Source of the DNA: Chroococcus sp. FPU101
Lineage (GTDB): Bacteria; Cyanobacteriota; Cyanobacteriia; Cyanobacteriales; Microcystaceae
Assembly: GCF_017312365.1 (NCBI RefSeq)
Contig: NZ_BLJI01000001.1
Coordinates: 186,001-250,000 of the forward strand
Direction of reading: 5' to 3'
DNA length: 64,000 nt
Below the pieces are notes generated by a model. It was not told the DNA's origin. It saw only the letters and a list, made by a program, of their open reading frames with translations, and did not search any database. Position 1 is the stretch's first letter; each line of letters opens with the position of its first letter. The translations under genes were made by a program, and so were the position numbers. Shown here piece after piece: positions 33,033 to 48,868 of this stretch.

Positions 33033-33396
33033 AACAAATCATTCTTTTATATCACTACTATTGTCGATCTTGTCTTTATATTAAGTTTTCTGAAAGTACG
33101 GATCATACACCCTTTCTCACCAAAAGTGCTTTGATAAGCTTCAATTAAATTCTGTTTAACATAATTGTTATTCTATGGTTTTCATTCTCCATTAAAACAA
33201 TTGTTAAATAACGTGTCAGAGCCAATTTGATTAGATGTGATCTGACTTTTATGCTAAACTAGATGACGAGAATCAAGATTAGCGTTCAAGTTCGTTGTCC
33301 GTATTAACTCAATAGGTTTCGTAGATTTAGTATTGGTCAGCTTCTTTCCCCGATTTTGTCTCTCTATACATTTTGATTTGTTCAAGGTAAACAGTT
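33033..33396. other. Divergent intergenic region upstream of the RRM gene
   Basis: No coding remnant. It contains the 10-base palindrome AACAATTGTT (33196-33205), a good promoter candidate downstream of it, and a leader of about 135 bases. Long leaders are usual for cold-induced RNA-binding-protein genes of cyanobacteria. Confidence 0.45.
33227..33255 (+). promoter_or_regulatory. Candidate sigma-70 promoter of the RRM gene
   Basis: TTGATT (33227-33232) and TATGCT (33250-33255) are separated by 17 bases, the optimal spacing. Transcription would begin near 33262. Confidence 0.4.
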
Positions 33397-33702
33397 ATGT
33401 CTATTTTTGTAGGCAATCTCTCCTACGAGATTACTCAAGAAGATCTTGTTGATGTCTTTACTGAATACGGCAAGGTTCAACGAGTTCATATTCCTACTGA
33501 CCGGGAAACTGGAAAGAAACGTGGTTTCGCTTTTGTAGAGATGGAAACTAAAGCCCAAGAAGCGGCGGCTATTGCTGCATTAGATGGTGCAGAATGGATG
33601 GGACGCGAATTAAAAGTTAATCAAGCTCGTGAAAGAGAAGATAGAGGCTCGTCATTTGGTGGCGGCGGCGGTGGCGGTAACCGCAGACAAAAACGTTTTT
33701 AA
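33397..33702 (+). CDS. RRM-type RNA-binding protein (Rbp family)
   Basis: A 101-residue protein. Residues 1-80 form one RNA-recognition motif with RNP2 IFVGNL (3-8) and RNP1 KKRGFAFVEM (about 44-53). Residues about 85-101 are Gly-rich and basic. This matches the cyanobacterial Rbp proteins with Gly-rich tails, often cold-induced; some guide mRNAs to thylakoids. The gene stands alone between a divergent SDR gene and a strong terminator. Confidence 0.92.
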   Translation: MSIFVGNLSYEITQEDLVDVFTEYGKVQRVHIPTDRETGKKRGFAFVEMETKAQEAAAIAALDGAEWMGRELKVNQAREREDRGSSFGGGGGGGNRRQKRF

Positions 33703-43129: not shown

Positions 43130-43383
43130 ATGCTCCAAGATACTCTTACTATCCGTTATTATCAAAGACTCACCGATGATCTGGTGGATTTGTGGGAACG
43201 CGGTTACCGTTTCATTATATGCGACTTTATGTCGATGGTTATATATCTTGTTTGCGTGATAATAACCTAGTCGAAGCCTATTTAATTCACCGTCTAGAAG
43301 AGGAAGTTTTTCGGTTTTTGCGAGATCCTTCCAATTTTGAGTTAGCGATTCCTCAAACTCAAGTAGAACGCGATTACTACTAA
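43130..43383 (+). pseudogene. DUF6761-like gene with a one-base frameshift
   Basis: The ATG at 43130 opens MLQDTLTIRYYQRLTDDLVD then LWERGYRF. The continuing frame after a one-base shift reads HYMRLYVDGYISCLRDNNLV and ends VERDYY at 43383. Together they make an 84-residue protein of a small cyanobacterial family (I believe DUF6761). Restoring one T in the short T-run near 43210 repairs the frame. The gene lies alone downstream of an AT-rich leader. The lesion could be a sequencing error in the T-run. Confidence 0.7.
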
Positions 43384-45140: not shown

Positions 45141-45377
45141 TTAAACTTCTGGAAAAATATCTTTAAATAGTACAAGAATAACTTGCTCGAAATCTTCTAG
45201 GTCTTGTTTCGCATCATAAAGATTTCTATAATCATCCCAAAAACTTTTAAAAAAATAAACTAACTTAGCCACAACACTTTTACCTTGTGCTTGTGGCCCA
45301 ATAGGGATATTTATTTTTCCTATCTCTAATTCTATGTGTTTAATATTCAAAAAATTAGTGACGATTAATTTTTCCAT
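45141..45377 (-). pseudogene. N-terminal fragment of an AAA ATPase
   Basis: A 78-residue frame starts MEKLIVTNFLNIKHIELEIG, then NIPIGPQAQGKSVVAKLVYF with the Walker A GPQAQGKS, and stops after VLFKDIFPEV. Full proteins of this type (AAA_15/OLD-like, often found in defence systems) are several hundred residues; signature and Walker B motifs are missing. It lies between aroB and rnhB, both housekeeping. This is most likely the remnant of an acquired gene. A functional short form cannot be excluded but is unlikely. Confidence 0.6.
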
Positions 45378-45416: not shown

Positions 45417-46526
45417 TTACAATGCTTTAAGTTCTTCCACTACTTCAAAAATCAATTCAGACGGAACCTCATCAGTAATAATAACTGTACCTATTTGAGT
45501 CGGTAAAATAAAACGAACTTTACCTGATTTTACTTTTTTATCAATCTTCAGCGCGTCTACAATTTCTGATGAATTGACACTTGCTGGAATAGTTGTCGGT
45601 AAACCTGCTTTTTTAATTAAATCGTTTTGTTTAATTTCTGCTTCAGATGACCAAAGATTTAAATGAGTGGCTATTTTTCCTGCAGCAACCATCCCAATAG
45701 CAACCGCTTCACCATGATTAATTACACTATAACCCGTTAAACTTTCAATGGCATGACCGATCGTATGTCCATAGTTTAAGATCGCTCTTAAATTCGATTC
45801 TTTTTCATCTTTGCTCACGACATCGGCTTTTGCTTGACAAGAACGAGTGATGATAGTTAGTAGTAAATCTTCACTAATATTGGAAAAATCGGCTAATTTT
45901 TCTGCTGCTTCTAACTGAGAAAATAGATCCGCATCCCATATAATGCCATATTTAATCACTTCAGCCATTCCGGCGCGAAATTCTCTGACTGGGAGAGTTT
46001 TTAAGACCAAAGGATCGATTAATACTAGACGAGGTTGATAAAATGCACCAATAAGGTTTTTACCTTGCGGATGGTTAACCCCAGTTTTTCCACCAATAGA
46101 CGCATCTACCATCGCGAGTAGGGTTGTAGGAACTTGTACGAAGTTTACCCCTCTTAACCAAGTTGCTGCGGCAAAACCTGTCATATCCCCAATAACACCC
46201 CCACCTAACGCGATGAAGGTAGACGATCGTTCTAAGCGTTGAGTAACAGCCGTATCATAGATTTTGGCAATAGAATCGAGGTTTTTGTAGGTTTCTCCTG
46301 CGGGTATAAAATGAGTCGTTACTTCAAACCCCTTATCAGATAAAGATTTTAATGCTGTTTCTCCGTAAATCTCAAAAATTTCGGGACTGGAAACAAGAAG
46401 AACTTTTTTTCCGAGATCGAGTGAGCTAATTTGTGCGCCGAGTTGGGCTAAACTATTGGAGATAATCGCAATGTTATAGGGATTTTGGGGAAGCTTAACA
46501 GGAATAATTGAAGACATAGCCGACAT
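45417..46526 (-). CDS. aroB: 3-dehydroquinate synthase AroB
   Basis: AroB of 369 residues, second step of the shikimate pathway, NAD- and metal-dependent. It has [60 protein letters not shown], and metal ligands in [15 protein letters not shown] and NHGEAVAIG. The second Met (46517) is an alternative start with equal family support. It is followed downstream by the AAA fragment on the same strand. Confidence 0.94.
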
Positions 46527-46599
46527 TGATGAAGTGGTGTTCTCTAACAGTACAATAACAAAGAATGAATTACATTATTTCAGGAGTCGTTGCCAAAAA

Positions 46600-46701
46600 A
46601 TGTCTATCTTTGCTATTGTCTCTTTTATCGCTTACATTCTAGTATTCACCGTTATTGCAGCAGGTCTCTATCTTGGTTTCCGCGCTGCTAAACTAATCTA
46701 G
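46600..46701 (+). CDS. petL: Cytochrome b6f subunit PetL (33 residues)
   Basis: A single-helix peptide of 33 residues. It starts MSIFAIVSFIAYILVF and ends GLYLGFRAAKLI; the -LI end after a basic/Gly segment is typical for PetL. CAGGAGT precedes the ATG. PetL is a small peripheral subunit that stabilises the b6f dimer. It stands alone upstream of the ars genes. Other single-helix thylakoid peptides are possible but fit less well. Confidence 0.65.
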   Translation: MSIFAIVSFIAYILVFTVIAAGLYLGFRAAKLI

Positions 46702-46816
46702 TTGGTGTTTATAAAAATTCTATATTTCGCTAAGAGTCGTCAGAAAAATGATCTTTCTGGCGATTTCTACATTAATCACAAAAGTTTCAAGTAAAATTGA
46801 TCTAGTCTTACTGCAT

Positions 46817-46832
46817 TTCAATTTTTTTTGAT
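46817..46832 (+). promoter_or_regulatory. ArsR-type operator overlapping the arsR start
   Basis: TTCAA-N6-TTGAT, where N6 is TTTTTT. It matches the ATCAA-N6-TTGAT motif known for ArsR in Synechocystis in all but one position, and its end covers the first bases of the arsR ATG. A second copy lies before the aquaporin gene. Confidence 0.55.
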
Positions 46833-47139
46833 GAACGCTACAACCTCTGACGTATCTACTGGATTTCATGCCCTCTCAGATCCACTTCGTTTACGAGTAT
46901 TAGATTTACTACGTGTGCAAGAATTATGTGTGTGCGAACTGTGAGAAAAACTAGAAATTAACCAATCTAAACTATCTTTTCACCTAAAAATACTCAAAGA
47001 AGCCAATTTAGTTCGTAGCCGACAACAGGGACGCTGGATCTACTACAGCCTTAATCTATCAGGATTTTTAGCCCTCGAAGAATATCTAGCAGAGTATCGG
47101 AGACTTACTCAACTGTTTCCAGTACGACAATGTGATTAG
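46831..47139 (+). pseudogene. arsR: ArsR/SmtB arsenic repressor with in-frame TGA at the third Cys ligand
   Basis: An uninterrupted frame of 102 codons except for one TGA at codon 38 (46942-46944). Before it, GFHALSDPLRLRVLDLLR and ELCVCEL are ArsR-like; after it, EINQSKLSFHLKILKEANLV and RQQGRWIYYSLN form the recognition helix and wing. ArsR proteins bind arsenite by ELCVCDLC; here Cys33 and Cys35 are kept and the TGA replaces the third Cys (normally TGT/TGC). I see no convincing SECIS hairpin. A nonsense mutation or sequencing error is likelier than selenocysteine. Confidence 0.85.
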
Positions 47140-47153
47140 CTGCCTCTTGACAA

Positions 47154-47169
47154 ATCAATTTTTTTTGAA
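47154..47169 (+). promoter_or_regulatory. ArsR-type operator before the aquaporin gene
   Basis: ATCAA-N6-TTGAA with N6 TTTTTT, one mismatch from the ATCAA-N6-TTGAT motif. It lies 38 bases before the aquaporin start, so the aqp-arsC pair has its own control site. Confidence 0.5.
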
Positions 47170-47207
47170 ATGATAAGAAAGGGTTTATTTATTTCATCGA
47201 CTGCGTT

Positions 47208-47906
47208 ATGCGTCTAGCTAAAACCGTTCCCAAAAAGTCCCTCAAAATACGACCAGAAGTTCTCGCCGAAGGAATTGGTACATTTATTCTCGTTTTTGCG
47301 GGTACTGGTGCAGTAATGGTGAATAGTATCAGTGATGGTGCATTGACTCATTTAGGGATTAGTTTTGTTTTTGGTGCGGTTGTAGCGGCTTTAATCTATA
47401 CTCTAGGTCACATCAGTCAAGCACATTTTAATCCTGCGGTAACACTGGCTTTTTGGGTGAGTGGTTTTTTCCCAAAAAAATCGGTTTTGTCCTACATTAT
47501 TGCTCAATGTGCGGGGGCGGTTGTCGCGTCTGGAGTGTTGTTAATAAGCTTGGGAAAAGTCGCTAATTTAGGTGCAACGCTGCCGTTAGAGGGAAATTGG
47601 CTACAATCCTTGGTTTTAGAGACGATTTTAACCTTTATCTTGATGTTTGTCATTTTAGGCTCAGGTTTAGATCGTCGTTCACCAGTAGGTTTTGCGGGTA
47701 TAGCAATAGGATTAACTGTAGCATTAGAAGCAGCATTTATGGGGCCGATTACAGGTGCGAGTATGAACCCTGCGCGATCGTTTGGTCCTGCAATGGTAGG
47801 AATGCTGTGGCAACATCACTGGTTGTACTGGGTTGCCCCCATTTTTGGCGCACAACTAGCAGTTATTGTCTATCGACATTTATCCAATGGATTTCAGGAT
47901 TTTTAG
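47208..47906 (+). CDS. Aquaporin (MIP family), probable arsenite channel of the ars operon
   Basis: MIP channel of 232 residues with six helices and two NPA boxes: HFNPAVTLAF (75-77) and GASMNPARSFG (187-189). It lies between arsR and arsC. In rhizobia the analogous AqpS replaces the ArsB pump and lets arsenite leave after ArsC reduces arsenate. That role is inferred here from position only. The selectivity filter looks closer to AqpZ-like proteins and was not modelled. The stop is two bases before the arsC ATG, so the two are cotranscribed. Confidence 0.85.
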   Translation: MRLAKTVPKKSLKIRPEVLAEGIGTFILVFAGTGAVMVNSISDGALTHLGISFVFGAVVAALIYTLGHISQAHFNPAVTLAFWVSGFFPKKSVLSYIIAQCAGAVVASGVLLISLGKVANLGATLPLEGNWLQSLVLETILTFILMFVILGSGLDRRSPVGFAGIAIGLTVALEAAFMGPITGASMNPARSFGPAMVGMLWQHHWLYWVAPIFGAQLAVIVYRHLSNGFQDF

Positions 47907-47908
47907 TC

Positions 47909-48310
47909 ATGAAAAGTATTATGTATGTGTGTAAAAAAAATTCGCGCCGTTCTCAAATGGCTGAAGGATTTACAAAAGTATTAGGGAAAGATAAAGTTAA
48001 GGTGACAAGTTCGGGTCTAGCGTCTTCTGAAGTTGATCCGATTACAATTCAAGTCATGTTGGAAATTGGGATTGATATTCGTGAGCAAACGTCTAAATCT
48101 TTGAGTGATTTTAATCCAGATGATTATGATGCGGTCATTTCTTTGTGTGGCTGTGGCGTGAATTTATCGCAAGAATGGCTATTACAAGAAGTTTTTGAAG
48201 ATTGGCAACTCGATGATCCTGAAGCAGAATCAATTGATACGTTTCGACGTGTTCGAGATCAGATTAAAGAAAGAGTGGTGAAATTAATCGCTCAATTAAG
48301 TGAAGAATGA
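47909..48310 (+). CDS. arsC: Arsenate reductase ArsC (glutaredoxin-linked type)
   Basis: Low-molecular-weight phosphatase-fold arsenate reductase of 133 residues. The CX5R loop is MYVCKKNSRRSQMAEG (C8, R14), and the resolving pair is VISLCGCGVNL (C80, C82), as in the Synechocystis enzyme. The usual second Cys of the loop (CKKNSCR) is Arg here. It reduces arsenate to arsenite with glutathione/glutaredoxin. It follows the aquaporin gene by two bases and completes the ars unit. A larger overlapping frame begins inside the aquaporin gene but is not the real start. Confidence 0.92.
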   Translation: MKSIMYVCKKNSRRSQMAEGFTKVLGKDKVKVTSSGLASSEVDPITIQVMLEIGIDIREQTSKSLSDFNPDDYDAVISLCGCGVNLSQEWLLQEVFEDWQLDDPEAESIDTFRRVRDQIKERVVKLIAQLSEE

Positions 48311-48311
48311 T

Positions 48312-48338
48312 AAAAAAGGGTTTGACGACCAAACCCTT
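48312..48338 (-). terminator. Terminator shared by arsC and the DUF1499 gene
   Basis: AAGGGTTTG (48316-48324) pairs perfectly with CAAACCCTT (48330-48338) around ACGAC. An A-run on the left gives a T-tract for the leftward DUF1499 transcript. It can also slow transcription coming from arsC. Confidence 0.75.
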
Positions 48339-48361
48339 GACAAAATCAAGTTAATATGCAG

Positions 48362-48868
48362 TTAGAACAATTTTCTAATCTGTTCAATGCGTTGACGATT
48401 TACCCCTAAGTCAGATTCGCCTAAACGAGAAGCAGAACGAACATCGATCACTTTTTCGTTGGAATTGACTAAAAATTCGACATCATCAACATAGCCCATC
48501 CAACGACTTGCAAATTCAGCATAAAGATAATTACTTTCTTCAGCAATGATTTTAGTCCGTTCTTGGGAATTTATCAGACTGGTTAAAGCAGCGATCGCGG
48601 TTTGCGATTCACCTTGATAAGCGATCGGTTCGATATAATGTTCTTTGTCTAGACTCTGACTACTGACACAGTTTGGACTACTGGGGCATGGTGCGAGTCT
48701 ACCCGCAACGACACCTAAGTTATCGGGGCGCATTCCCGAAAAAGGTGTGGGGAGAGTCGGAAAAGCGACGCGGATACCCATCGTAATCAAAATAATCAAC
48801 ACTGGGGCAATGAGAAAGAAAACACCACGATTTTTTGATTTGAATGATGACGATTTAGCTTGAGACAT
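48362..48868 (-). CDS. DUF1499 membrane-linked protein
   Basis: A 168-residue protein with an N-terminal membrane helix (GVFFLIAPVLIILITMGIRV) and then a DUF1499 domain. The domain shows APCPSSPNCVSSQ with the paired cysteines, YLYAEFASRWMGYVDDVEFL and VIDVRSASRLGESDLGVNRQ. The domain is probably periplasmic or lumenal. Function is not known, although members are widespread in bacteria and plastids. It is transcribed toward the ars terminator. Confidence 0.85.
   Translation of the reverse strand: MSQAKSSSFKSKNRGVFFLIAPVLIILITMGIRVAFPTLPTPFSGMRPDNLGVVAGRLAPCPSSPNCVSSQSLDKEHYIEPIAYQGESQTAIAALTSLINSQERTKIIAEESNYLYAEFASRWMGYVDDVEFLVNSNEKVIDVRSASRLGESDLGVNRQRIEQIRKLF

Follow-up and report, generated by a model that had tools for sequence, protein, structure and literature searches.

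An in-frame TGA in a cyanobacterial arsR gene that has an intact second copy: probably a recent nonsense mutation, possibly a sequencing error, rather than recoding

Introduction

ArsR of the E. coli plasmid R773, a type 1 protein with Cys32, Cys34 and Cys37 in its arsenic site, is the closest described counterpart of the repressor considered here. In the available part of one source, Cys37 of R773 ArsR is termed a required As(III) ligand (PMC11868830); in that of another, the exchange C37S in E. coli ArsR lowered the response to As(III), while As(V) and phenylarsine oxide still elicited one (PMC7309064). For cyanobacteria, the accessible section of a review describes arsR of Synechocystis PCC 6803 as unlinked to the arsBHC operon, and mentions cyanobacterial clusters with an ArsR gene ahead of pstS (PMC4284471). 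As to the decoding of UGA, excerpts of two further sources name SelB together with SelC as the signature of selenocysteine decoding (PMC1273633), and report a tRNA-Cys with a UCA anticodon (selC*) from some anaerobic bacteria of other phyla (PMC7609411).

Here, we analysed a stretch of 64,000 nucleotides from Chroococcus sp. FPU101 (the window), in which an arsR gene carries an in-frame TGA. Its product shares with R773 ArsR the protein family and the motif ELCVCxL with the first two cysteines; unlike in R773 ArsR, the third cysteine codon is TGA, and without read-through the DNA-binding helix would be missing. As far as the Synechocystis PCC 6803 system is described in that review section, a glutaredoxin-type arsC accompanies ArsR here as it does there, whereas the broken arsR adjoins an aquaporin gene and arsC. 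In a second cluster of the assembly, a pstS-like gene comes after arsR, an arrangement similar to the ArsR-pstS clusters of the review (PMC4284471). A tRNA of the selC* type would decode UGA as cysteine, which is what recoding of this arsR would need; unlike in the anaerobic bacteria of the excerpt (PMC7609411), we found no counterpart in this assembly.

Results and discussion

The features of the locus are collected in Table 1. The translated arsR frame, M...ELCVCEL-TGA-EKLE...QCD-stop, contains a single internal stop. When the TGA is taken as cysteine, the product matches Pfam HTH_5 (E 5e-18) and NCBIfam NF033788 (99.7 bits, cut-off 55), and contains an ArsR-type winged helix-turn-helix domain. 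A sequence-only reading of this DNA had placed the TGA exactly at the third cysteine of ELCVCxLC, which we confirm, so that the three cysteines of a type 1 ArsR are not all encoded. It had also described the rest of the gene as intact, including the DNA-binding helix. This holds for the sequence, the frame 3′ of the TGA being undamaged, though the recognition helix is encoded after the TGA; without read-through, the product would thus be 37 residues long. No in-frame restart codon (ATG, GTG or TTG) follows the TGA. What is at stake is consequently everything beyond residue 37, recognition helix included, rather than a single ligand.

Table 1. Features of the arsR locus in the window (positions are those of the window)
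Feature	Position	Strand	Basis
Dyad TCAA-N6-TTGA, additional upstream copy	46787..46800	.	pattern; function putative
Dyad TCAA-N6-TTGA reaching into the start codon of arsR	46818..46831	.	pattern; function putative
arsR frame, ArsR/SmtB repressor, type 1 arsenic site ELCVCxL-(stop)	46831..47139	+	Pfam and NCBIfam
Internal TGA, codon 38, site of the third arsenic-binding Cys	46942..46944	+	translation and comparison of loci
Dyad TCAA-N6-TTGA between arsR and the aquaporin gene	47155..47168	.	pattern; function putative
MIP-family channel (aquaporin) gene, intact	47208..47906	+	MIP 194 bits; TIGR00861 over cut-off
arsC, glutathione/glutaredoxin-type arsenate reductase, intact, TGA stop	47909..48310	+	TIGR02689 217 bits, cut-off 157.6

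How telling is the position of the stop? Single-base changes that yield a stop number 51 in the intact arsR of the sister species (G001), three of them at the three arsenic cysteine codons and one at the third; for TGA specifically, the numbers are 14, three and one. The chance of a stop falling on an arsenic cysteine codon is hence about 6%, and on the third cysteine about 2%, both judged after the fact. The coincidence of the TGA with an arsenic-binding cysteine is a weak one, and with 3/51 possible nonsense changes hitting such codons, we ruled out its position as evidence of design.

Across 30 arsR loci, the window's included, the equivalent of codon 38 is TGY in 25 (TGC in the sister species), CGC for arginine in four, and TGA in one. 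The four arginine loci (L019, L021, L022 and L027) all belong to one genus, g7, whose fifth genome (L008) has TGC. An additional ArsR copy in genome G006, part of which shows at the edge of locus L013, reads ELCVCELM. The third cysteine is thus replaceable in nature.

The TGA did not recur among relatives. Matches to the ArsR protein were present in 56/58 genomes and, counting from the matches listed, reached 53% identity or more in at least 48 (own genome included in both figures); no internal stop was seen among the listed matches of that identity in the 47 other genomes. A distant match in G044 (38% identical) with an internal TAG was not accepted as an orthologue. In a phylum sample of 386 genomes, ELCVC-x-L-TG occurred at 77 places in 76 genomes, again counting the own one, and only the window's genome (1/76) had ELCVCxL-TGR, the 75 others being without it. 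The same ELCVCxL-TGR pattern, scanned in a collection of 84,980 species that may leave out the window's own genome, gave 39 stretches, 32 with TGA and seven with TGG. By eye, none of the 32 TGA stretches continues as ArsR, and the one stretch of the 39 that does (L127) has TGG. Among the relatives compared, the TGA is private to the window's genome. No literature title among the matches listed concerned a UGA-recoded ArsR, which does not prove that none exists.

Several searches addressed the recoding of UGA as cysteine or selenocysteine, one of three options that the sequence-only reading had left standing. In the same assembly, scored 98.94% complete, the best selA match had 16.2 bits (cut-off 267.9) and the best selB match 188.2 bits (cut-off 242.25); the latter, a 415-aa frame covering profile positions 1–264 of 581, was taken as EF-Tu. 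None of 16 tRNA-Sec (selC) matches passed the cut-off, the best, at 45.2 bits vs 47, being a tRNA-Leu(TAA), and all 16 coincided with sites of tRNAs found in the general tRNA search. That search, which scored 150 of 398 first-look candidates so that an odd tRNA could escape it, returned 43 matches, 42 of them with an ARAGORN call and none of these 42 with anticodon UCA; the 43rd (C1:530214-530349) is part of a tRNA-like repeat array. A pattern combining a UCA loop with a T-loop matched 36 times vs 48 in a reversed control. Run on 30 of the 36, ARAGORN placed one tRNA at a match, a tRNA-Leu(CAG), and no further one, with a tRNA-Asp in the flank of two other pattern matches. Three stretches after the TGA folded about like their shuffles (z-scores −0.25, −1.12 and +1.40), and Rfam gave no match at E≤1 in 46500-48400. 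Among 57 window ORFs of at least 100 aa, 43 end in TAA, nine in TAG and five in TGA, arsC being one of the last.

The genome search for selA, selB and selC that had been proposed thus brought nothing over cut-off, and the earlier remark that no SECIS-like hairpin follows the TGA holds. With neither machinery nor recurrence, decoding of this UGA as Cys or selenocysteine found no support, and the tRNA, selA/selB and recurrence checks agree with the original reading, which had put recoding behind both a nonsense mutation and a sequencing error.

We then asked how old the stop could be. Compared with the sister species, arsR has a dN/dS of 0.104, inside the range of 0.040–0.136 for 14 gene pairs (arsR included), and the values before and after the TGA are both 0.100. 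Equal values on either side imply that the stop is very recent, or an error, or read through; if the gene is lost, they are compatible with a young loss only. In a simple Poisson model with a background of 0.10, the probability of seeing 13 or fewer changes is 0.014 if the gene evolved neutrally over 20% of the branch, and 0.125 if it did so over 10%.

To judge the stop against its surroundings, 32 frames of the sister species with a match in the window were considered, covering about 36–51 kb and parts of 0–36 kb. Point lesions occurred in two, arsR and a DUF6761 gene at 43130-43383 (+), 3.7 kb from arsR, which has one base fewer than its counterpart and is split over two frames. The DUF6761 gene is present as a single copy here and occurs in 16/18 other genomes, in none of them with a stop; its frameshift, near position 43,210, points either to a further recent gene loss or to errors in the assembly. 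No internal stop follows the start in the other aligned frames, which rules out a high error rate. The density of lesions is compatible with ordinary gene loss as well as with sporadic errors. Left out of this count were two frames at window 31505-30633 and 33373-33699, in which the stop precedes the called ORF start, and an AAA-type ATPase, a truncation rather than a point lesion: 431 aa in the sister species, it persists at the same place as a 78-aa remnant at 45141-45377 (-), the first 77 residues matching.

The order of arsR, MIP-family channel gene and arsC was also found at loci L013, L014 and L028, whose flanks were viewed over about 1.5 kb; no arsenite exporter gene was seen among the window's ORFs at 45–50 kb. 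Elsewhere in the assembly lies a second arsR (C1:557865-558158) without a stop, 61% identical to the broken one; its neighbours are arsH, a pstS-like gene and another arsC, and the two ArsC proteins are 71% identical. When 31 ArsR sequences were placed in a tree, the broken one grouped with its counterpart in the sister species (support 98/98) and the paralogue fell outside this pair, most remaining forks of the tree being unresolved. Downstream of the sister species' arsR, neither a channel gene nor arsC was found. The sister species is thereby the mirror image of the window: there, the targets are lost and the regulator is kept. In that species (L081:13773-14460), arsR is intact and the intergenic dyad after it is retained.

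This dyad, TCAA-N6-TTGA, clusters strongly around arsR. Over the 30 loci, which are related and whose counts are therefore not independent, we found 19 dyads in 10.8 kb upstream of arsR (18/30 loci) and 32 in 12.0 kb within 400 bases after it (25/30 loci), i.e. 51 in 22.8 kb vs four in 68.0 kb of remaining flank. At 18/30 loci, the dyad runs into the ATG of arsR; its strict form is missing upstream in 12/30 and downstream in 5/30. In the window's genome, dyads also lie at the start of the second arsR and in the gap that separates this gene from the pstS-like one. From the sequence, we infer that TCAA-N6-TTGA is an ArsR operator and that the second ArsR would bind the dyads of the window. The dyad is a by-product of this work, yielding a testable candidate operator for these ArsR proteins. 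In genus g7, the four loci with arginine at the third cysteine retain the downstream dyad, and the strict upstream dyad is absent from all four as well as from the cysteine-bearing L008.

What, then, is the TGA? A recent nonsense mutation that replaced a Cys codon by TGA and inactivated a duplicated arsR is the explanation we hold to be probable. Translation would end after 37 residues, ahead of the DNA-binding helix, so that this gene would yield no repressor. The aquaporin-arsC pair, preceded by an operator-like dyad of its own, would be held at least partly by the second ArsR, and would otherwise be constitutively on. Repression of the same promoters by the second ArsR is plausible, given that this paralogue is intact and that the dyad is common to both arsR genes and the region before aquaporin-arsC; for the same reasons, constitutive ars expression, which the sequence-only reading had expected of a nonsense mutation, is unsupported as stated. 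Instead, the gene may really be intact and the stop a sequencing or assembly error, in which case ArsR would be autoregulated and also repress the aquaporin-arsC pair. The equal dN/dS before and after the TGA, the otherwise undamaged arsR frame and the second point lesion in the DUF6761 gene, 3.7 kb away among the 32 aligned frames, speak for such an error. However, the remaining aligned frames lack an internal stop after their start, and a substitution in arsR and a missing base in the DUF6761 gene are not obviously one type of error; we regard an error as possible but rather unlikely. The weights given to mutation and to error are judgements and were not computed.

Recoding in either form fares far worse. 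Read-through by a near-cognate or unrecognised suppressor tRNA, inserting cysteine or another residue, would give some full-length repressor. It would account for purifying selection that looks as strong past the TGA as ahead of it, and arginine at the third cysteine codon in four related genomes, which makes that cysteine replaceable, means that most residues at codon 38 might serve; a UCA-anticodon tRNA-Cys also exists in some anaerobic bacteria, as far as the excerpt goes (PMC7609411). Nevertheless, no UCA anticodon was found among the 42 of 43 tRNAs with a call, the loop pattern added none in the 30 of 36 matches scanned, the TGA is not conserved in the sister species, and TGA serves as a stop here, in arsC for instance. 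Read-through is accordingly very improbable, and a working repressor made through a missed suppressor tRNA or a leaky context is a shade more improbable still. If true, this would place the level of an arsenic sensor under the control of stop-codon read-through, and this in an organism that lacks the machinery for selenocysteine. Selenocysteine as the third arsenic ligand has in its favour that Sec/Cys exchange is usually marked by UGA at a cysteine position. Against it, no SECIS-like fold follows the TGA, and SelA as well as SelB and SelC, named as the decoding signature in the excerpt consulted (PMC1273633), stayed below cut-off. Since the machinery is missing from an assembly of this completeness, selenocysteine is largely refuted and its probability next to nil. 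A recent nonsense mutation matters little in itself, being a single genome's loss in a duplicated regulator. The case rather calls for caution: a UGA at a conserved cysteine, without machinery, recurrence or reads, is no evidence of recoding.

Additional observations

Upstream of arsR, a small frame at 46600-46701 (+) encodes MSIFAIVSFIAYILVFTVIAAGLYLGFRAAKLI, which we take to resemble the cytochrome b6f subunit PetL; the sister species has similar DNA. Outside the window, the tRNA-like repeat array of the same assembly (L179:2640-3340, corresponding to G000:C1:530140-530840) consists of units with a common stem and tRNA-like arms. It gave two tRNA matches and two weak matches to YrlA (Y RNA-like; 27.6 and 24.2 bits, cut-off 69), and is followed by a gene for a 477-aa protein with a VWA_2 domain, for which Pfam reported no TROVE match. 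As a guess, the array might encode divergent Ro-associated Y RNAs, placed in tandem with the gene for a Ro60-like protein.
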